Shown: piece by piece, positions 9,201 to 55,560 of the stretch
Numbering within the stretch: the first letter of the stretch is position 1
How the letters are laid out: the number at the start of each line of letters is the position of its first letter
From: Pelagicoccus enzymogenes
GTDB taxonomy: Bacteria; Verrucomicrobiota; Verrucomicrobiia; Opitutales; Opitutaceae
Direction: 5' to 3'
Length of the DNA stretch: 64,000 bases
Assembly (NCBI RefSeq): GCF_014803405.1
Contig: NZ_JACYFG010000040.1
Coordinates: 124,001 to 188,000, forward strand
Program-made: the position numbers and the translations under genes
Notes under the pieces: model-generated
Told to the model about the DNA's origin: nothing
What the model saw: only the letters and a program-made list of their open reading frames with translations
Database searches by the model: none

Positions 9201-12200
9201 CCAAGATACCGCAATCTGCGACGTAGAGCTGCCAGATGCCTGTACGTTCGAAGGAACGGTTGGCGGAGCATTGACACTCGGAGTGAACAAAACCGCTTTT
9301 TCCGATTGAGCCGACAAATTGCCTGCGGCGTCCAAGGCAACGACCGAGTATTCATACCGGGCGGCTGGCGACAAGCCGCTGTCCAAGAAGCTCGTAGTCG
9401 AAACGATTCCTAAGAGCGATCCGTCACGAAAAACTCGATACTCCGTCACTCCTACATTGTCAGTAGCGGCACTCCAAGTTAATCGCGCGCTCAGATTCGC
9501 TTCCAAGCTCACCGACACATTGCTCGGAGCTGAAGGATTTTCTGCGTCGCCCCCCCCCGATTCGTTAATAGGAGAGAGAGAGACATTGTCTATGTAATAC
9601 GTATCGCCGGCCCTGCCGTCACTTGCAAACCAGAAGAAAAGCCGACCGTCCTCGACAGGTGCAGCGAAGCCTAAGGTCGTGAATTCAAAAGAGAAGCTTT
9701 GCCATTCCGTCCCGAGGTCGAACAACTCGCGACTCATTCCGTAGTTAGAGTATGGAGACGAATGCTTTGAGAGCGAAAGCCTGAGATCGCGACCGCTGCT
9801 TGAGTAGGCAGCAAAGCTCACCCGGTAACGAGTATCGGGAAGCAAATGAATATCGTTCTGGTAAAGCTGGATATTGGAGCCGCCCGTGATTAGATGAATT
9901 CGGGCCGCGTTTTGCCCAAGGTACCCCGGACTACTCGTATCAGCATCGCCGGAACCATTCGTGTAAAAGCTCCAACTGCCCAAACCTCCTTCAAACCCTC
10001 CATCCAATACAACGTTGGGATTACTGGGCAGGGTTTGTCCGTTGACTGTCGAAGAAACCGATGAAACGGAATCGTCATTGTCAACAGCCTGAACACCGTA
10101 TCCATAAACGGTGTCAGGCTCTAGTCCCGTATCCAGAAACGAAGTTGAAGCGGTTTCGCCAATTTCGACCCCGTCTCGGAAAACCTTGTAGAGCGCCACA
10201 AATCCATCATCGCTAGACGCTTCCCAGGAAACGTTCACTTCTGTTTGAGAGACACCGATAGCCTGAACTTGGCTAGGAGTCGACGGGGTTGAGACAACGC
10301 GATTGCCCACCACCGAAGAGCTACTAGCCATGACCGCCGCAATATCCAACTCATCCAAGGCTCGAGTGTAGATACGCACGTCATCTATTAAGCCATCGAA
10401 ACTACGATCTCCCTGCGGCTGATTTCCGATCGCGACGGGCACGCTTGGCGCTTGCGAAATAGTTCCCGACTTAGAGAGCTCTGCGTCCAATTCGCCGTTA
10501 ACATACAACCTCATATTCACACCATCATAGGTAGCAGCGACATGTATCCACTCTCCCGGCACAAGAATCCGACTGCCGATAAGAGTATCAGTACCACCAT
10601 CATTGGTCTTTAGACGCATGCGCAACTTGATTCCGCCGCTGTTAATGGTGCTAAGCATCCAGTAGTGATCGTTCGCTGCGGGTCCCGTAGCCTTGGATAT
10701 CACTCGACTGTCGGACACATCGAAATTATCCGCTAGAATCCATGCGGTCAGCGCCATGTTCGTTCCGGGAATATCGACGTTGCCCATATCAACGAATCCT
10801 CCCCCTCCGAGAAAATCGAGAGCACGCCCTGTCTTTCCATCTTCGACTCGTTCGACGTAGTCCGTTATCGCTCCATCGTGAGCGTTCGGGGTCACGTCAA
10901 AAACTAAGGCACCATTCTCTTCTTCAAAATCGAGCCCAAGCCAAAGGTCCGGATCTGGCTGAGTCACCGTCCGCAACGTAAGCGAATCCGAACTTCCAGA
11001 CGCGTTGCCAGAGAGATCAAGCGCCACAACGCGATAGCTGTACACTGTCTCCGGCAATACAGTTTCATCCACAAAGGTTGCATCGGCAACTTCCCCGAGC
11101 AAAGAACCATCGCGGAATACCTGATAGCCTGCAACGCCTACATTGTCCGAAGAGACAGCCCAAGTCAGCTGAATGCCACCGGTATTTAGAATCTCCAATG
11201 CGAGCCTATCGGGAACGCTCGGCGAAATGGTGTCCGAAACCGTCGAGCCTAGGGCTCCATTGGATCGAGACGAGACGTTTCCGGAAACATCAACAGACTC
11301 AACGGTATAGCGATAGGTGGAGTCCGGCAGAAGTCCGAAATCTTGGAAAAACGCAGAGGCGGTATCTCCAATCAGCGTACCGTCTCGATAAACTCGATAC
11401 AGCGCGACCAAATGATTATCGCTCGATTCGTTCCAACCTATGCGGAGCGACGTTTCGGTTTCATTCGAGACAACAAGTCCAATCGGTTGGCTTGGAGGCG
11501 TGGTATCCGCAACAGTCGTCGGGCTTAAGGAATTGGAAAGAGCGGAAACATACAATTCGCCGTCAATCGACTGTACCTGATATTGGTAACGAGTTCCTGG
11601 ATTCAATCCCGTATCCGTAAAACCGTTACTTGAAGACGTTCCGACGAGATTCCCGTCGCGGAACACGCGATACCCCGCGACAGACACATTATCCGTCGCA
11701 GGATTCCAACTCAGCTCCACTTCGGTTGAACCGATGTTCACCGCATTCAATCCAGACGGCTTGGAAGGCAAATCGCCTGCGGTAGCGGTCGTGCCACTCA
11801 CAACCACGGACGACTCGGATTCATTTCCTCCATCGTCAACAGCCCTCACGAAGTAGCTGTAAGCAGTGTTCGCGTTGCGCCCCGTGTCAGTAAACGACTC
11901 AGTATTAACAAAGCCAATTGGGCTGGAAGTACCCACACGATAAACGTTGTACCCCACGACGGCCAAATTATCGGAAGATGGCTCCCAAGAAAGGGTCACG
12001 GTACTAGTCGTCATCGCATCAATACGAACTGCCCCGGGTACGGACGGGACCTCGGTATCCTGTATGGCGCTGACCGGTGCGAGTTTCACCAACAGCGGCT
12101 TGTAGATGGAATTGATTTTCGCGCTCGTCCCAGCGAACTCCGTTCCCTCGACCAAGGCTATGTAAAAAGTGTGCGGCACGCCGCTGAGGTAACTCTCCAA

Positions 12201-48241: not shown

Positions 48242-49504
48242 TTAGGCCAAGCTCCCCCTTGCTTGATCGACTCGTTTCAAGTAATTGTCCGAAGACGCTC
48301 CCAAGGAAAACAAGGGAACCGCTCTCTCGCGCGCCCTGACACCCATGGCCCCCCACGAGTCGCGTTCTTCCAGAGCACGCCTGACTCCTCTCTTGAAACA
48401 GTCTTTGGTCGGCTCTTCGATCAGCCAGCCCGTTTCGCCATCCAACACCGTTTCCGAAGGACCGCCTAAAGCGTAAGCGAGAACCGGGCGCTCCAGGAAC
48501 TGGGCCTCAATTACAGAGAGACCAAACGGCTCGGCGTTCAATCGACTGTTAATCACCACGTCCGCCAAACGCAGGTAAGGGCGGGTGTCATCCACTTGCC
48601 CCAAAAACCGAACCAGATGCGTCACCCCAGCTGCATCCACCTTGTCCTGCAGCTCTTTTGCGTAATCGGAGTCCAACGGCCCTCCCGCTAGAATCAGCGC
48701 GACCTCCAATCCCTCTTCTATAAGCTCCAGAAAGGCTTCGACCACCAGGTGCTGCGCCTTTGCTTTCACAAGTCTGGCCGCCACGAGAAAAACAGGAAGG
48801 TCCTGGGGCAAACCAACGCTTTCCTTATCCAGCGCCTCAAACGGAGCCGAGGGCGAAAACCATTTCTCGTCGGTTCCCGGATAAAGCACCCCGCAAAACC
48901 CATTTCCTCCGCCCAGCGAGTCAGCCGTATGCCGACTATTGGCCAACGGTTTTATACTCAAGACACGACAGATCGAACGGTAGGCCAGCGATTGGAGCCC
49001 AAAGGGCAGCTTGGAATTGATGGTGTTGTGAATATGCCAAAATACGGGGACCTGAGCCGACCTTGCCGCAAGACCCGCCTTCAAGATACCGGAGTTGATC
49101 GACACGTGAACCCAGTCCGTCTCGAAGGCGCGAATCGCAGACGCGATCTCCTTTTTGTGAACCAACGAGTCTCGAACACTTTCAATGCAACCGAAGAGAT
49201 AGGAAACGCCCCTGCCGCGAATGCCCCTGTCCTTGTTGCGGTCGCTGAGAAAGAAAACGGAGTAACCCGCGGCCTCCAGCTCATCCGCAAAGGTTCCTTG
49301 CTCACGAATGACAAAGCCAATCTCTATCCCGCGACTGCGAAGGTCGCTCGCGAACCCCAAATGCGCCCTGCGAAAGCCGTAGCCCTCATCGCCACCGACA
49401 ATCCAAAGCAAGCGCCCCAGTATATCATTCCCCTCCTTCGATACAAACGCAGATTCGCCGTCCAAGGGACAGCTACCAAAATCTGAAGTATTGAAGTTTT
49501 TCAT
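48242..49504 (-). CDS. GT4 family glycosyltransferase
   Basis: 420 aa. GRLLWIVGGDEGYGFRRAHL is the first strand and loop of a GT-B fold. The donor domain has VFLVAARLVKAKAQHLVVEA (strand with Arg and Lys for the diphosphate), HLVRFLGQVDDTRPYL and NAEPFGLSVIEAQFLERPVL, where E-P-F-G-L-S-V-I-E is the conserved GT4 motif. No membrane span or signal peptide is visible. It follows the copolymerase gene across a 40-base gap that contains a strong hairpin. It is one of the repeat-unit glycosyltransferases. Confidence 0.92.
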   Translation of the reverse strand: MKNFNTSDFGSCPLDGESAFVSKEGNDILGRLLWIVGGDEGYGFRRAHLGFASDLRSRGIEIGFVIREQGTFADELEAAGYSVFFLSDRNKDRGIRGRGVSYLFGCIESVRDSLVHKKEIASAIRAFETDWVHVSINSGILKAGLAARSAQVPVFWHIHNTINSKLPFGLQSLAYRSICRVLSIKPLANSRHTADSLGGGNGFCGVLYPGTDEKWFSPSAPFEALDKESVGLPQDLPVFLVAARLVKAKAQHLVVEAFLELIEEGLEVALILAGGPLDSDYAKELQDKVDAAGVTHLVRFLGQVDDTRPYLRLADVVINSRLNAEPFGLSVIEAQFLERPVLAYALGGPSETVLDGETGWLIEEPTKDCFKRGVRRALEERDSWGAMGVRARERAVPLFSLGASSDNYLKRVDQARGSLA

Positions 49505-49544: not shown

Positions 49545-51914
49545 CTACCTTCGGTTCTCCTTGTCAGCCATCAGTTTACTGACGAGCGAGTTACCGCCCT
49601 TTTTCGCTCTCGTTAATTCCTTCTCGCGAGCCTTCTTGCGCTTATCGAATTCATATTTTTCGTAATTCGAACGGTAGGCCAGACGCGGATTGAAGCTACC
49701 GGGCGAGTAACAGTTCAATATAATACCAAGCACAGGGGCGGCCGTGTTTTCTATATCCATGATGACGCGCCTGATCTGAGCAACGGGAGCGCAAGACTCG
49801 CGGGCCACAAAAAGCGTTTCGCCCACGTACTTGGCAAGAAGCTGGGCGTCAGGGTAGAGCCCCACGGGAGGAGTATCCACCAAGATGACATCAAACGCTT
49901 CGCTCAACACTTCGAACAGCTTATCGAACGCGTCAGAAACCAGCAATTGGGACGGATGCTTCGAAACTCCACCAGCTGGCAACATATAGGTTCCACTATC
50001 CAACTGGTGAATGCCCAGCGGAGAGGAGTCATCCAATACGTTTTCCATCGGACAACCGGCTTCTCCCCACCAAATCAAGCCTTTCTCTTTTTCGACGGAA
50101 TGGAATTGCTGCAGCCCAGGCTTCCTCAGGTCACAATCGATCAACAACGTTTTCCTGCCCAGACGGACAAAACCGTCGGCGAGATTCGTTGATATCGTGG
50201 ACTTGCCTTCCGCCTTCACCGCGCTCGCAATCACAAACGACTTGCACCCAGACTGCCTCGACATCAACTCCACCTGAGCGATCAGAGCCATGAACGGCTC
50301 CACGTAAGTCATTCCCAAATCGTCGGAAACGATTCGAGCCTTGTCGCGGGCCTTCAGTCGGGAAATGCGGGGAACCCCGCCCACCAGCGGCTTGCCGAGC
50401 TCTTGCTCAATATCCGTCGCCACCTTGATCCGCTGGTCAAACAAGTGCAGGGAGAGCGGCATGGTAACAAAAGCCCCGAAAGCGAGACAGCCTATGATCA
50501 TGAGCGTCACCTTCTCCTTCGAGAGTTTGGGCCGCACGATAAAGGCCGGATCGATGACTCTCATCACATCCTTGGGCAAGTTGCTCACGACCTCTGCCTG
50601 ATTGGCTCGCCTTTGCAGTTCCTTCAGGGCTTCGCGCTTCGCTTCGATTTCACTGTCGATGAGGAGCAGCTGAGCTGACAAACGCCCCATTTCGATCCCC
50701 TTCTTGAATACATCATTGAACTCTCGGTCGAGACGTTGCTCCATGGCCACAAGGTTCAAAAATTGGCTCTCTATATCGCGATAACCCAATTCAAAATTGC
50801 GGCTTATATTCTGATTGACGCCCTTTATCTTGCCATCGATTTCGAGCATCTTCGGGTGCATACGACCATACTTGAGAGCGAGCACAGAGCGTTCCGCATT
50901 CAACGCGTCAAGCGATTGCCGCAGCGCTTGGTTGTTCGCGAAGTTCGCTAAATATAAATTTTCGAAGGGTTGCCCGTCTACCGCCAAGTCCCGTTTCGCT
51001 TCTTTTAACTTGGATTCCAGATCAAACTTGCGAATACGTGTCTCCGTAAGGGATTTATTTAAACGCTCAAGCCTCAAGGCATGAAAGCTGTCCTCCTCCT
51101 CCATGGAAGAAATATTGTGTTGATCCCTAAATTCTCGTTGGCTCTCTTCAAGCTGAGTAATCTCGTCCTGCAGTTGCTTCGACTGTATATTTAATATCTG
51201 GGCAACCGACTTGTTTGTCTCCTTGATTTCGTCCTGAACCAGCTCAAGGTAGGTCGCCGTCATCCGGTTGGCGACCAAGACTGCAACCTCCGGATCTCGG
51301 TGGGTGTAGCGCAAAGTGAAAAACTCGCGATCCCTTTGCCGCTCCGCTCCCGATCGACTGGCGATCATATTGATAAAACGGTCCTCGGTCAGGGTCTCTC
51401 CGTCGTTAAGAAGAGGCGCTGCAATGCGTTGCTTTTCCTCATCCGTAATGGCCTTGGATATCGCCACGCTGAAGCGGCGACTTTGCATGACCGATAGATG
51501 GTTATGCAGAAAATTTTCCTGCACATCCTTTCTAACACTTTCATTTCCATTAATCTTAAGCAGTTCGTCCAGAGGACTTTGGGCAAGCATGGTGGAAACC
51601 GCGGTGTATTCCGGAACCGTTCTGCCAAAAAAGAAATAAAGCGTCCCCCCCACCAAGGCGGCTGCCAGAAATGCGGAAACCCAACGCTTGCGGATAATCA
51701 TTAACAGCGCCCGGAGGCGTCCTATAACCTCCGCAATGGTCATGTCATGGGCAGGTCCGCTTTTCTGCGAATTGTAGCTGTAGTTCGCAGTCGATGGCAG
51801 GTGCGACGCCGGATAATCATGCCGTCCCCCATCATTCGCGCCGCTAAATACATTCCGCCTCCCATTCCGGCGGAATGAGTTCGACGATGTTGGTTCGTTA
51901 TCTTTATCCGCCAT
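49545..51914 (-). CDS. Wzc-type polysaccharide copolymerase with BY-kinase domain
   Basis: 789 aa. An unusual polar N-terminus of about 65 residues precedes the Wzz domain. TM1 is near residues 83-100 (WVSAFLAAALVGGTLYFFF), a long coiled-coil-rich periplasmic region follows, and TM2 lies near 478-500 (VTLMIIGCLAFGAFVTM). The cytoplasmic kinase has Walker A SAVKAEGKSTISTNLA (about residues 563-578), Walker A' KTLLIDCDLRKPGL and Walker B VILVDTPPVGLYPDA. The C-terminus has a tyrosine cluster (LAYRSNYEKYEF) for autophosphorylation. It controls chain length and couples polymerisation to export. GGGAG lies 8 bases before the ATG. The fused kinase is the Gram-negative arrangement. Confidence 0.95.
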   Translation of the reverse strand: MADKDNEPTSSNSFRRNGRRNVFSGANDGGRHDYPASHLPSTANYSYNSQKSGPAHDMTIAEVIGRLRALLMIIRKRWVSAFLAAALVGGTLYFFFGRTVPEYTAVSTMLAQSPLDELLKINGNESVRKDVQENFLHNHLSVMQSRRFSVAISKAITDEEKQRIAAPLLNDGETLTEDRFINMIASRSGAERQRDREFFTLRYTHRDPEVAVLVANRMTATYLELVQDEIKETNKSVAQILNIQSKQLQDEITQLEESQREFRDQHNISSMEEEDSFHALRLERLNKSLTETRIRKFDLESKLKEAKRDLAVDGQPFENLYLANFANNQALRQSLDALNAERSVLALKYGRMHPKMLEIDGKIKGVNQNISRNFELGYRDIESQFLNLVAMEQRLDREFNDVFKKGIEMGRLSAQLLLIDSEIEAKREALKELQRRANQAEVVSNLPKDVMRVIDPAFIVRPKLSKEKVTLMIIGCLAFGAFVTMPLSLHLFDQRIKVATDIEQELGKPLVGGVPRISRLKARDKARIVSDDLGMTYVEPFMALIAQVELMSRQSGCKSFVIASAVKAEGKSTISTNLADGFVRLGRKTLLIDCDLRKPGLQQFHSVEKEKGLIWWGEAGCPMENVLDDSSPLGIHQLDSGTYMLPAGGVSKHPSQLLVSDAFDKLFEVLSEAFDVILVDTPPVGLYPDAQLLAKYVGETLFVARESCAPVAQIRRVIMDIENTAAPVLGIILNCYSPGSFNPRLAYRSNYEKYEFDKRKKAREKELTRAKKGGNSLVSKLMADKENRR

Positions 51915-52027
51915 TTAATTCGCTCCCGTTCATGTCCCGTTTCCCCAGATCCCCAGACGCAGTTCGCCTCGAGCTACCTAATGAAACTCCTCCTATAATG
52001 CAGTTCGCAACACCCCCTCAGCAATCG

Positions 52028-52120
52028 CTACACCGAACCGCTCGATTTTATCACGCCAACAACAACAACCACTACAGCTGCTATTATAAATAAATACTTT
52101 ATTTTCTTTGATTCATTCAT
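52028..52120 (-). CDS. Small single-pass membrane protein (30 aa) inside the EPS operon
   Basis: On the minus strand an ATG at 52,120 opens a 30-codon frame ending with TAG at 52,028. The peptide begins MNESKKIKY, has a hydrophobic run LFIIAAVVVVVVGVI and ends KSSGSV. This is a charged n-region, one membrane span and a short polar tail. GAGG lies 8 bases before the ATG, a good ribosome site. It sits in the 231-base gap between the copolymerase gene and the priming transferase gene, in the same direction as both. It could be a small partner of the membrane complex or of the kinase. No family was recognised, and function is unknown. Confidence 0.6.
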   Translation of the reverse strand: MNESKKIKYLFIIAAVVVVVVGVIKSSGSV

Positions 52121-52145
52121 GTAAACATCCTCAAATTTTCACGCG

Positions 52146-53564
52146 CTAGTACGCGTTCTTGTATTGGAACAAGGTCCTAAACTGGATGACGATATCCAGC
52201 CAGATGGACCAGTTTTCAATGTACTGCAGATCGTGCTTGATACGGTCTTCTAAGCTCGTATTTCCGCGCAATCCATTTACCTGAGCCCAGCCCGTCATGC
52301 CTGGCCGTACAGAGTGACGACTTTGATAGTGCGGAATTTCGTCCAAAAATCCGCGAATCAGCTCTGGACGTTCAGGGCGTGGCCCAACCAAGCTCATGTC
52401 ACCCTTGAGCACATTCCAAAACTGAGGCAGTTCATCGATATTCCATTTCCTGAGAAACGCTCCGATTTTCAACCGCCGACCATCGTTCTCGCTGCACCAA
52501 CGGGCTTTTCCGTCAGCTTCCGAAGAAAGCTTCATCGAGCGAAACTTGTATATAGTGAATGGTTTGCCACCCACACCTGTCCGTATCTGCCTGTAAATGA
52601 CCGGTCCCGGACTTTCCCGGCGAATAAGAAAGTAGACGATCGGAAAAATCGGAACCGTAATCGCCAAGCCTACGATCGCTCCCACAATATCGAGCATCCG
52701 TTTGAGCAAACTGCTGAACATGTTGTTCTGCGGCAGCTCCGAAACACCCAAAACCGGTTGTCGCCCAAGCATCTTGAGCCCTAAACACTGGGTGAAGATG
52801 TCAAACTGGTTTGGAACCAAATTGAATTCCACAAAGTGACGCTCACACACCTTGGCGATATTCAACGTCGCCTTGGCTCCCATCTCACTGTCAGCCACTA
52901 CAACGTCGTCGACGGCATAACGCTCGAGCACCGATTCCAATGAATCTAAATGGCCCAGGACCGTCAGGTTAAACCACTTCGCACCGATTTTCTTTCCATC
53001 GGCCACGACTCCGACCACCTCGCAAGGCTCGTTGAGGCTCGTTGCGAGCTTACCCACAAACGCTTGATTTCGATCAGGACAGCCAACTACCAAGATTTTT
53101 CGGACATACCTTCTGCCTCCCCATACGCCCTGCACCATTTTGACCCGCAAAATTCGCCACAATGGCAATAATACGCACATCAGGCCGCAGGTGTATCCCA
53201 CGAAGAGACGAGAAACGGGCGGCGACAGCTTCAAAATCAGCGACAAGCCAAGGAACATGACTGCCCAAAACAGCGAAACCTTGATCAAACGGGACAAGGA
53301 GCGCTCCAAGGACTGCGCCACGTTCGAGTCATAGAGATCCAAATTCCAAGCGAGCAAGAAGAAGAGAAAAAAGCCGGCCGAATAGTGCAGCAGGTAAGCC
53401 AGGACAGGCGGACGGTCTCCACCTTCCACAACGCCAATATTCAATATATAACGCAAGTAATAGGCAATAAACATGCAGAGCGCCACCACAAAGCAATCGC
53501 CAATGAACATCCAGGAAATGGGATACCTTTTTCTTCGCGCAACGGGTAGTGGGTCATTTTTCAT
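52146..53564 (-). CDS. Undecaprenyl-phosphate sugar-phosphotransferase (WcaJ/WbaP-like, priming enzyme)
   Basis: 472 aa. The first 140 residues have four or five hydrophobic segments, followed by a cytoplasmic CoA-binding-like domain (KILVVGCPDRNQAFVGKL). The catalytic C-terminus has ESPGPVIYRQIRTGVGGKPF, TIYKFRSM, DELPQFWNVLKGDMSLVGPRPE and RPGMTGWAQVNG, all hallmarks of the bacterial sugar transferase family. It loads a hexose-1-phosphate, typically glucose or galactose, onto undecaprenyl phosphate. This is the first step of repeat-unit assembly. It follows the OPX gene after 112 bases containing a hairpin. Confidence 0.95.
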   Translation of the reverse strand: MKNDPLPVARRKRYPISWMFIGDCFVVALCMFIAYYLRYILNIGVVEGGDRPPVLAYLLHYSAGFFLFFLLAWNLDLYDSNVAQSLERSLSRLIKVSLFWAVMFLGLSLILKLSPPVSRLFVGYTCGLMCVLLPLWRILRVKMVQGVWGGRRYVRKILVVGCPDRNQAFVGKLATSLNEPCEVVGVVADGKKIGAKWFNLTVLGHLDSLESVLERYAVDDVVVADSEMGAKATLNIAKVCERHFVEFNLVPNQFDIFTQCLGLKMLGRQPVLGVSELPQNNMFSSLLKRMLDIVGAIVGLAITVPIFPIVYFLIRRESPGPVIYRQIRTGVGGKPFTIYKFRSMKLSSEADGKARWCSENDGRRLKIGAFLRKWNIDELPQFWNVLKGDMSLVGPRPERPELIRGFLDEIPHYQSRHSVRPGMTGWAQVNGLRGNTSLEDRIKHDLQYIENWSIWLDIVIQFRTLFQYKNAY

Positions 53565-53676: not shown

Positions 53677-54315
53677 TTAGAACGTGCGTTCGGGAACGAA
53701 AACGATGTCTCCGGGTAGCAAGGCGAATGCCTTCGCTTCGGCGTTTTTGCGTTTTGATTCGAAATATGCTTCTAAATTTACGGTTATACGCTCCTCAGCC
53801 CCCTGCGTGTCTTGCCGCGTCACTTGAATCGCGTCGATTTTCGCAAGCCGGGTAAAGCCACCCGCCTCCGTGATCGCCTGCACCAGATTCATAGACTTGG
53901 CTTCTAGCGGAAATAAGATCTGTTCGGGCCGGTTCACTTGCCCCAATACGGAGACGCTTCGTTGCGAATACTCCTGCATCGCCAAAAGCACCTGCGGGTT
54001 GATATAGAACTCCTGCTCGACATACATCTTGACCAGCTTTTGCTCCGCATCGCGTAGGGTGAGCCCGGCGACGTTCACGATGCCGATTAACGGTAACCTC
54101 AATTCCCCACTTGCGGAGACGCGCTGGACCAGCCGCGTATCTGGCTCGTCGTAGATTTGAAAAGTTACCAAATCCAAAGGAGCGATTTCGTAGTCGTTCA
54201 GTTGAGTGACTTCCCCGTTTCCTCTCGCCATGGTGGCTGCAAACACGATCGCCAACCCTCCAAAAATCCGAAGCCAATGCAGCGCTTTCTTAATGTGATT
54301 GCTTTTCAACGTCAT
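53677..54315 (-). CDS. Short polysaccharide export protein (Wza-like OPX family)
   Basis: 212 aa, much shorter than the about 380 aa of Wza. A hydrophobic leader (LRIFGGLAIVFAATMARG) is a signal peptide without a lipobox cysteine. YEIAPLDLVTFQIYDEPDT begins the polysaccharide-export domain, with RVSASGELRLPLIGIVNVAG. A single SLBB-like segment (SVSVLGQVNRPEQILF...ITEAGGFT) follows. The C-terminal amphipathic helix that forms Wza's outer-membrane pore is absent. The outer-membrane channel is therefore probably supplied by the beta-barrel gene 14 bases upstream. This two-part OPX plus barrel arrangement is known from Myxococcus-type systems. Confidence 0.92.
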   Translation of the reverse strand: MTLKSNHIKKALHWLRIFGGLAIVFAATMARGNGEVTQLNDYEIAPLDLVTFQIYDEPDTRLVQRVSASGELRLPLIGIVNVAGLTLRDAEQKLVKMYVEQEFYINPQVLLAMQEYSQRSVSVLGQVNRPEQILFPLEAKSMNLVQAITEAGGFTRLAKIDAIQVTRQDTQGAEERITVNLEAYFESKRKNAEAKAFALLPGDIVFVPERTF

Positions 54316-54329
54316 CGCTTCCCTTTCCG

Positions 54330-55484
54330 CTAATATCTCCAGCCACTCACCAAGTTATAGAAGGTGCGATCTACATCGAATCGCTCCACGTCAGAATTGC
54401 TTTGGTAGAGTTCGGCTGTCAGCCGGGTAAAGAACCGCTTCGTAAACGCGTACTCCAGAGCGCCCCTAAAGCGCAAAAAGCTGTCGTCCCGCGTTTCCCC
54501 ATCCAGCAGTTCAAAGTCTACAATCCCGCGTTCGACGTATCCGATGAAACGGAATCCGTCTCCCAGTTCTTTCCGGTATTCAATATCGAGTGACTGCAGC
54601 TTGGACGCCGAGCCATTGGCCGAAAAACCGTATTCGTTCCGCAATCCAATTTTCGCCTTGGTCAGCGGAGACGCTGTCCACGTCACATCCGCATTGAACA
54701 CAGGTCCCGTGTCCTCGAAGTCGATCAGACCCGTAAATTCCGAATGCCGCACGCCAGCATAAAAGTCACCATTGAGCTTCTCGCTGAGCTTTCCCCTTCC
54801 CCTGAACACCAAGAGATGCTGCGTCGACTCGGAGCCGGAATCCGAATCGAGAGAACGCAAGCCGTATTCCAGAGCCCAACGTCGTTCAACGCCCCACGAA
54901 CCGCTGTAGCCGCCTCTCAAGGCCAAGGTTTGCGAGACGTCCAACCCGTCGTTCGAACGGTCCACCTTGTTGGCCAGGATAGCGCCCGTCATCCCAGTCT
55001 TTGCGGAGAATAGGAAATCACCCGATGCTCGAACCCCGTATATCGTCGGCTGGATGCGCTGCCCCGTCTCGATGCTTTCCCGCGTATTGCGGTTCCAAAA
55101 CGCGTCCGCCTTCCAGAAAGCGGAACCTTCCCTGTCGTTAGGGTAAACCGCGTTCACCGCCACTCCGCCATCCGTGTAGTCCGAATCGCCTTCGGAAAAA
55201 AACTGGGTACGAGCCAAGTTGCCGCTGAACACCAAATCCGTGAGGCTGTTGAGACGCGAAACCGACACCGAGTGCGAGGCCAAAGCATAGTAGTCGTCGC
55301 GAGTCGCCTCCGCGCTGCCGTCGATGTTTTCGTCGAAGCCCAAGCCCAGCTGGGTTTCCTGCTGGACGCCCCATCTCTTAAATAACTGCTCAGCCGCAAG
55401 CTCCAGTGTCCCACAAGTCAGAGTTGCCAGCAGGAGAGCCGCTGGTCGGACTAGTTTCGAAGCTGACTTGGTTGGAGAGGACAT
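54330..55484 (-). CDS. Outer-membrane beta-barrel protein of the EPS operon (EpsL/BBP2 type)
   Basis: 384 aa from the ATG at 55,484. A TTG at 55,511 lies inside a leader stem and adds nothing to the signal peptide. ASKLVRPAALLLATLTCGTL is a signal peptide, probably cleaved near LAAE. The rest consists of alternating polar and hydrophobic strands (GLGFDENIDGS, GNLARTQFF, RGALEYAFTKRFFTRL) ending LVSGWRY with an aromatic C-terminal residue, as in outer-membrane barrels. It is the first gene of the operon and lies 14 bases upstream of the OPX gene, so it probably forms the outer-membrane channel for the polymer. Confidence 0.85.
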   Translation of the reverse strand: MSSPTKSASKLVRPAALLLATLTCGTLELAAEQLFKRWGVQQETQLGLGFDENIDGSAEATRDDYYALASHSVSVSRLNSLTDLVFSGNLARTQFFSEGDSDYTDGGVAVNAVYPNDREGSAFWKADAFWNRNTRESIETGQRIQPTIYGVRASGDFLFSAKTGMTGAILANKVDRSNDGLDVSQTLALRGGYSGSWGVERRWALEYGLRSLDSDSGSESTQHLLVFRGRGKLSEKLNGDFYAGVRHSEFTGLIDFEDTGPVFNADVTWTASPLTKAKIGLRNEYGFSANGSASKLQSLDIEYRKELGDGFRFIGYVERGIVDFELLDGETRDDSFLRFRGALEYAFTKRFFTRLTAELYQSNSDVERFDVDRTFYNLVSGWRY

Positions 55485-55509
55485 CACAGAGGAGGAGTTG
55501 GAAAAGGTC

Positions 55510-55560
55510 AATTTGCTGCGTCGAGCAGCCCCTCGCCTAGTCGGGGCCGTTCAGCAAATT
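55510..55560 (-). promoter_or_regulatory. Structured leader stem-loop upstream of the EPS operon
   Basis: A perfect 9-bp stem AATTTGCTG (55,510-55,518) / CAGCAAATT (55,552-55,560) encloses an inner stem GCCCC (55,528-55,532) / GGGGC (55,543-55,547). It lies 25 bases upstream of the ATG at 55,484, within the predicted leader RNA. No T-run follows directly, so it looks like an RNA regulatory structure rather than a terminator. It matches no riboswitch that I recognise. Confidence 0.5.

Follow-up and report, generated by a model that had tools for sequence, protein, structure and literature searches.

The window analysed here, a stretch of 64,000 nucleotides from Pelagicoccus enzymogenes, very probably contains a real and easily missed gene at positions 52028-52120 of the minus strand. 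The first-pass annotation had proposed that an exopolysaccharide operon contains, at this place, a gene for a small membrane protein. Conservation in all three of the relatives found to share the gene order supports it; the further idea of that annotation, a small regulator of BY-kinase or priming-transferase activity, is a hypothesis. As to function, we give roughly even chances to the reading that the gene encodes an inner-membrane microprotein with one helix, belonging to the Pelagicoccus lineage, which would serve as an accessory of the polysaccharide machinery and tune the Wzc-type protein.

The exopolysaccharide operon of the window lies on the minus strand. It includes genes for a beta-barrel outer-membrane protein (54330-55511, PF10082) and a short outer-membrane polysaccharide export (OPX) protein of 212 aa (53677-54315, PF02563), and this adjoining pair resembles the composite OPX/beta-barrel export system described in PMC9601211. 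They are followed by a priming sugar transferase of the WcaJ/EPS_sugtrans type (52146-53564; PF02397, with TIGR03025 above cut-off and TIGR03023 below its cut-off), the small frame, a polysaccharide copolymerase/tyrosine autokinase of the Wzc type (49545-51914, TIGR01007 above cut-off) and a further frame, a glycosyltransferase by eye (48242-49504). The small gene is separated by 25 nt from the stop of the transferase gene (52146) and by 113 nt from the Wzc-type ATG (51914) that follows it. These coordinates and the family matches bear out the proposed location between the copolymerase/kinase and priming-transferase genes, in the same direction.

The frame itself is also present as it had been described. 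It runs from an ATG to a TAG, the stop codon being included in the coordinates, and the translation of the window gives a product of 30 aa, MNESKKIKYLFIIAAVVVVVVGVIKSSGSV. A Shine-Dalgarno-like GAGG at 52129-52132 (-) stands 8 nt 5' of the ATG, and the hydrophobic span covers residues 9-24 (YLFIIAAVVVVVVGVI, 52049-52096 (-)) by segment hydropathy, with borders set by hand. The AlphaFold2 model of the 30-mer is one helix over residues 3-29 (mean pLDDT 84.9, pTM 0.37), which was already expected because the 30-mer is hydrophobic. Three further features were noted at this place. A 72-aa antisense frame (51875-52093 (+)) overlaps the gene. Six valine codons, the last four of them GTT, form a possible slippage tract at 52058-52075 (-), found in this copy only among the four genomes described below. 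A promoter-like match (9/12) at 52125-52096 (-) lies over the start of the gene, and it is weak because three such sites were seen in the kilobase against 1.2 expected.

The same slot was then compared in relatives. For the transferase, 57 genomes were searched and 49 matched; the Wzc search covered 8 genomes of the genus (7 matching) and 200 of the family (168 matching). The loci of the best-scoring matches, 67 in all (L001-L041 and L049-L074), were opened, and genes were placed in them by tblastn. In 7 of the 67 loci, from four genomes, the transferase gene stands directly before the Wzc gene on one strand; as the best-scoring matches alone were opened, this tally of the gene order is a lower bound. 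The four are the window genome, G007, G004 and G187, and the last three appear to be DG1235, Pelagicoccus mobilis and the Opitutales MAG OFTM265, respectively, the first two of which belong to the same genus as the window genome. A small hydrophobic frame was found in the transferase-Wzc gap, on that strand, in all seven loci and thus in all four genomes, located 25-115 nt past the transferase and 113-161 nt ahead of wzc. Identity to the proteins of the window is 47-53% for Wzc and 63-65% for the transferase in the three relatives (the latter partial in the MAG). A scan of the genome contigs with the Wzc alignment gave three loci, in the same three relatives, and nothing further.

Among the remaining 60 loci, small hydrophobic frames were found in two (three in L039 and one in L074), all of them on the strand opposite to Wzc. 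An OPX gene lies upstream on the Wzc strand in 32 of the 33 other Wzc loci, and no transferase lies upstream of Wzc in these 32; the exception, L034 of G006, has neither OPX nor transferase there. The small frame is absent from L013, where a Wzc-type match directly precedes a transferase. G006, which is of the same genus, has a related Wzc (41%) and transferase (44%) in another order and without the small gene. In the corresponding locus of that genome (L044), a NusG-like frame, so read by eye, was observed between the OPX and Wzc-type genes at 10031-10597 (+).

A frame of this kind is rare. Counting both strands, the window has 478 frames of 25-60 aa, and that at 52028-52120 is the most hydrophobic of them; it alone has a best 15-residue hydropathy mean of at least 3, and two frames reach 2.8. 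Another 105 kb from the genus, in six stretches, has 759 frames of this length; only two of them reach 2.8, and both are in the same slot, in DG1235 and P. mobilis. Dinucleotide shuffling of the 231-nt gap of the window gave no frame this hydrophobic on that strand in 1000 trials, and the counts per 1000 for the four gaps were 0, 2, 0 and 3 (window, G007, G004 and G187) at a hydropathy threshold of 3.0, or 2.87 for G187.

The conservation is seen at the level of the protein. The four products have an approximate consensus of MKLKxxxLFxIAxGVIxGVITSNASA and share the frame, its position, the hydrophobic span and an end of the T/K-S-N/S-A/G-S type, with the tails KSSGSV, TSSASAMLVVGA, TSNASAWGL and TSNASAIKALL. 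Their lengths are 29-32 aa with the chosen starts; in G007 and G187 the conserved ATG was picked by hand, and mechanical calling from the first TTG or GTG gives 41 and 45 aa there. In the three relatives, the MK(L/I)(K/R) position supplies the likely ATG; the window has a lysine at that position and its likely ATG four codons upstream. The frame, position and hydrophobic span, for which the first-pass annotation had suggested a check in relatives, hold in three of three with the same gene order, and the start codon differs by these four codons in the window.

In the ungapped alignment of the four sequences over 25 codons, variable columns number 13, 13 and 24 at codon positions 1, 2 and 3, an excess at the third position with p 0.022 one-sided (overall test p 0.09, two-sided). 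The pairs are not independent of each other; third positions account for 19 of 30 differences in G007-G187 and again in G004-G187 (p 0.0007 each), and for 14 of 26 in G007-G004 (p 0.025). The excess is not significant in the three pairs with the copy in the window (p 0.05-0.07), and it is weaker in every pair when third positions are compared with first positions alone (p 0.007-0.13; 0.026 for G007-G187 and 0.007 for G004-G187). Pairs among the three relatives have a pN/pS ratio of 0.22-0.32, and pairs that include the window copy one of 0.44-0.55; that copy is divergent and may evolve at a higher rate.

Leave-one-out profiles ranked the small frame first in all four cases, against all frames of the DNA of the row left out. 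The scores were 42.0 bits for G007 (E 1.6e-12, 573 frames), 36.0 bits for G004 (E 9.9e-11, 514 frames), 41.4 bits for G187 (E 9.8e-13, 228 frames) and 11.1 bits for the window copy (E 0.025, 1682 frames in 64 kb). These scores mark the frames in G007, G004 and G187 as clear homologues, and the copy in the window is placed by position, layout and a modest score. When that copy was shuffled with its n-h-c layout kept, 4, 15 and 121 of 2000 shuffles scored as high against G007, G187 and G004, respectively. None of 5000 column shuffles reached the observed score, but this test is biased because the frames had been pre-picked for hydrophobicity; it was set aside, and the case for a gene leans on the shared slot, the differences by codon position and the leave-one-out ranking.

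These data bear on the idea that the frame arose by chance and is no gene. The divergence of the window copy with its GTT run would fit that idea, as would the ribosome sites, which are not common to the relatives: by eye, G004 has AGGA, further off, and none is evident in G007 or G187. We consider a chance frame extremely unlikely, given that so rare a kind of frame occupies one slot in 4/4 genomes and is conserved as protein.

The position upstream of wzc, with a gap of 113-161 nt in the four genomes, could also suit a leader peptide or translational coupler, in which translation itself rather than the product would control wzc expression. What is kept is the protein sequence, which argues against a leader, and the gap of 113 nt behind the gene (51915-52027 (-)) is unconserved. 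Identity from the end of the small gene to wzc is 0.37-0.45 in all six pairs, against shuffled means of 0.42-0.45, and folding of the four gaps is not unusual (z -0.89 to 0.29). This region in the window has neither a match to Rfam nor, on this strand, a terminator-like site. The leader reading is thus very unlikely, and an RNA element in the gap was ruled out on the same grounds of unconserved DNA, ordinary folding and the lack of an Rfam match or terminator-like site. The gap also contains a GGAGGAG at 51987-51993 (-), with no start codon close behind.

The distribution of the gene appears narrow. Profile searches of the small protein were made in 252 genomes obtained for the family and in samples of 372 genomes of the order and 387 of the phylum, both overlapping the family set, and no further clear member was found in them. 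At E <= 1, 75 of the 252 family genomes matched, nearly all weakly; the only four strong matches are not independent finds because they are the rows of the profile itself, and the next best (E 0.00275) lies inside a 142-aa frame. Eight of the 372 order genomes matched at E <= 0.01, of which three are rows of the model (G187 is absent from the matches listed, presumably because the sample did not include it); of the other five, one was opened (G040, L108) and is antisense within a 402-aa frame. In the phylum set, the window genome alone matched at E <= 0.001, and the gene is single-copy in that genome (profile, E <= 1). None of the four small proteins scored above cut-off with a Pfam or NCBIfam model. 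Sub-threshold Pfam hits of the window copy (DUF3098, E 0.03; 4HB_MCP_1, 0.26; NVEALA, 0.3) and of the MAG copy (LapA, 0.03), as well as the NCBIfam hits (NF038244, E 0.0046, for the window copy and two weaker ones for the MAG copy), were not used for naming. A limited literature search found no relevant report of a small protein associated with these partners, nor of small frames in Verrucomicrobia, and no paper title on Pelagicoccus exopolysaccharide. Judging from sequence, we file the product of 52028-52120 as a new, narrow microprotein family among the small single-helix membrane proteins of polysaccharide assembly.

The chief rival to the membrane-resident accessory is a product resembling a signal peptide, handled by Sec and cut by signal peptidase I after A-S-A, of which the membrane piece or a tail of 3-6 residues would be active or discarded. 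By reading, the proteins share the n-h-c layout of cleavable signal peptides, with a basic n-region and a hydrophobic core, and TS(N/S)ASA ends the span in three of four sequences, with 3-6 residues behind it; A-S-A would make a good -3/-1 site for signal peptidase I. The window copy also has a weak resemblance to the pheromone family NF038244, at 17.3 bits where the cut-off is 29. However, the A-S-A columns read G-S-V in this copy, and the core of 16 residues is long for a cleaved signal. No mature protein follows, as the stop comes 0-6 codons past the S-A-S-A columns in the four genomes. The conserved part is the signal-like part and the tail is unconserved, the opposite of what an exported protein would show; by eye, three OPX proteins encoded in the same operon look unconserved at their N-termini. 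We regard cleavage of this kind as unlikely.

If the product is instead a resident accessory, the gene neighbourhood points to two possible partners. It could belong to the priming transferase rather than to Wzc and limit initiation, with an effect like that of ExoX against ExoY. The gene directly follows that of the transferase in the four genomes, and its three relatives have transferases 63-65% identical to that of the window, the next six among the matches listed having 44-46% identity. On the other hand, Wzc and the transferase are both closest in the same genomes, so the partners are inseparable by this comparison. We think a transferase accessory unlikely, and somewhat favour Wzc as the partner. 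Two other ideas were set aside: a helix split off from a partner, as the transferase and Wzc were read, by eye and recall, as having their usual helices, and a type I toxin, considered from size alone, because of the fixed place in the operon.

In the preferred reading of an accessory that tunes Wzc, the basic N-terminus would stay in the cytoplasm, and the orientation is predicted from its charge. The helix would make a single pass through the inner membrane and bring the short polar tail to the periplasmic face. The small protein may tune the assembly of Wzc or the chain length, as RmpD does in Klebsiella. This partnership is suggested by the gene neighbourhood, and the Wzc reading draws on two reports: RmpD is a Wzc-binding protein that controls chain length (PMC10294653), and the helices of Wzc in the octamer structure from E. 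coli are not close-packed (PMC8285477). A more specific and unlikely proposal is that the protein is a dedicated microprotein subunit of a Wzc-type tyrosine kinase, in which a helix of 30 residues would sit in the loosely packed membrane region and set octamer stability or chain length, having evolved in Verrucomicrobiota separately from RmpD. Polysaccharide assembly is usually told with large proteins only, and RmpD is a tiny membrane protein able to reset Wzc. A second small protein encoded next to Wzc in another phylum would suggest that helpers of this type recur and escape gene finders; if it is a lineage-specific extra only, it still adds a new microprotein family.

The known systems give two likenesses by description. 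In Sinorhizobium, ExoX is encoded alongside the priming transferase ExoY, and the small gene is likewise encoded with a priming transferase and could control initiation; its product probably differs from ExoX in size and sequence. Overexpression of exoX lowers EPS and that of exoY raises it, post-transcriptionally, according to PMC4443731. The second is RmpD of Klebsiella pneumoniae, to which the product is similar as a small protein tied to a Wzc-type pathway, with the one N-terminal membrane helix of the RmpD family (by hydropathy and the modelled helix). The RmpD family is also marked by Wzc binding and longer chains. According to PMC10294653, RmpD has 49-58 aa, and its C-terminal domain carries positive charge and lies in the cytoplasm, whereas the proteins described here have 29-32 aa with the chosen starts and a short polar tail predicted to lie outside. 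By length and tail the small protein is not an RmpD, and by analogy it may act like one.
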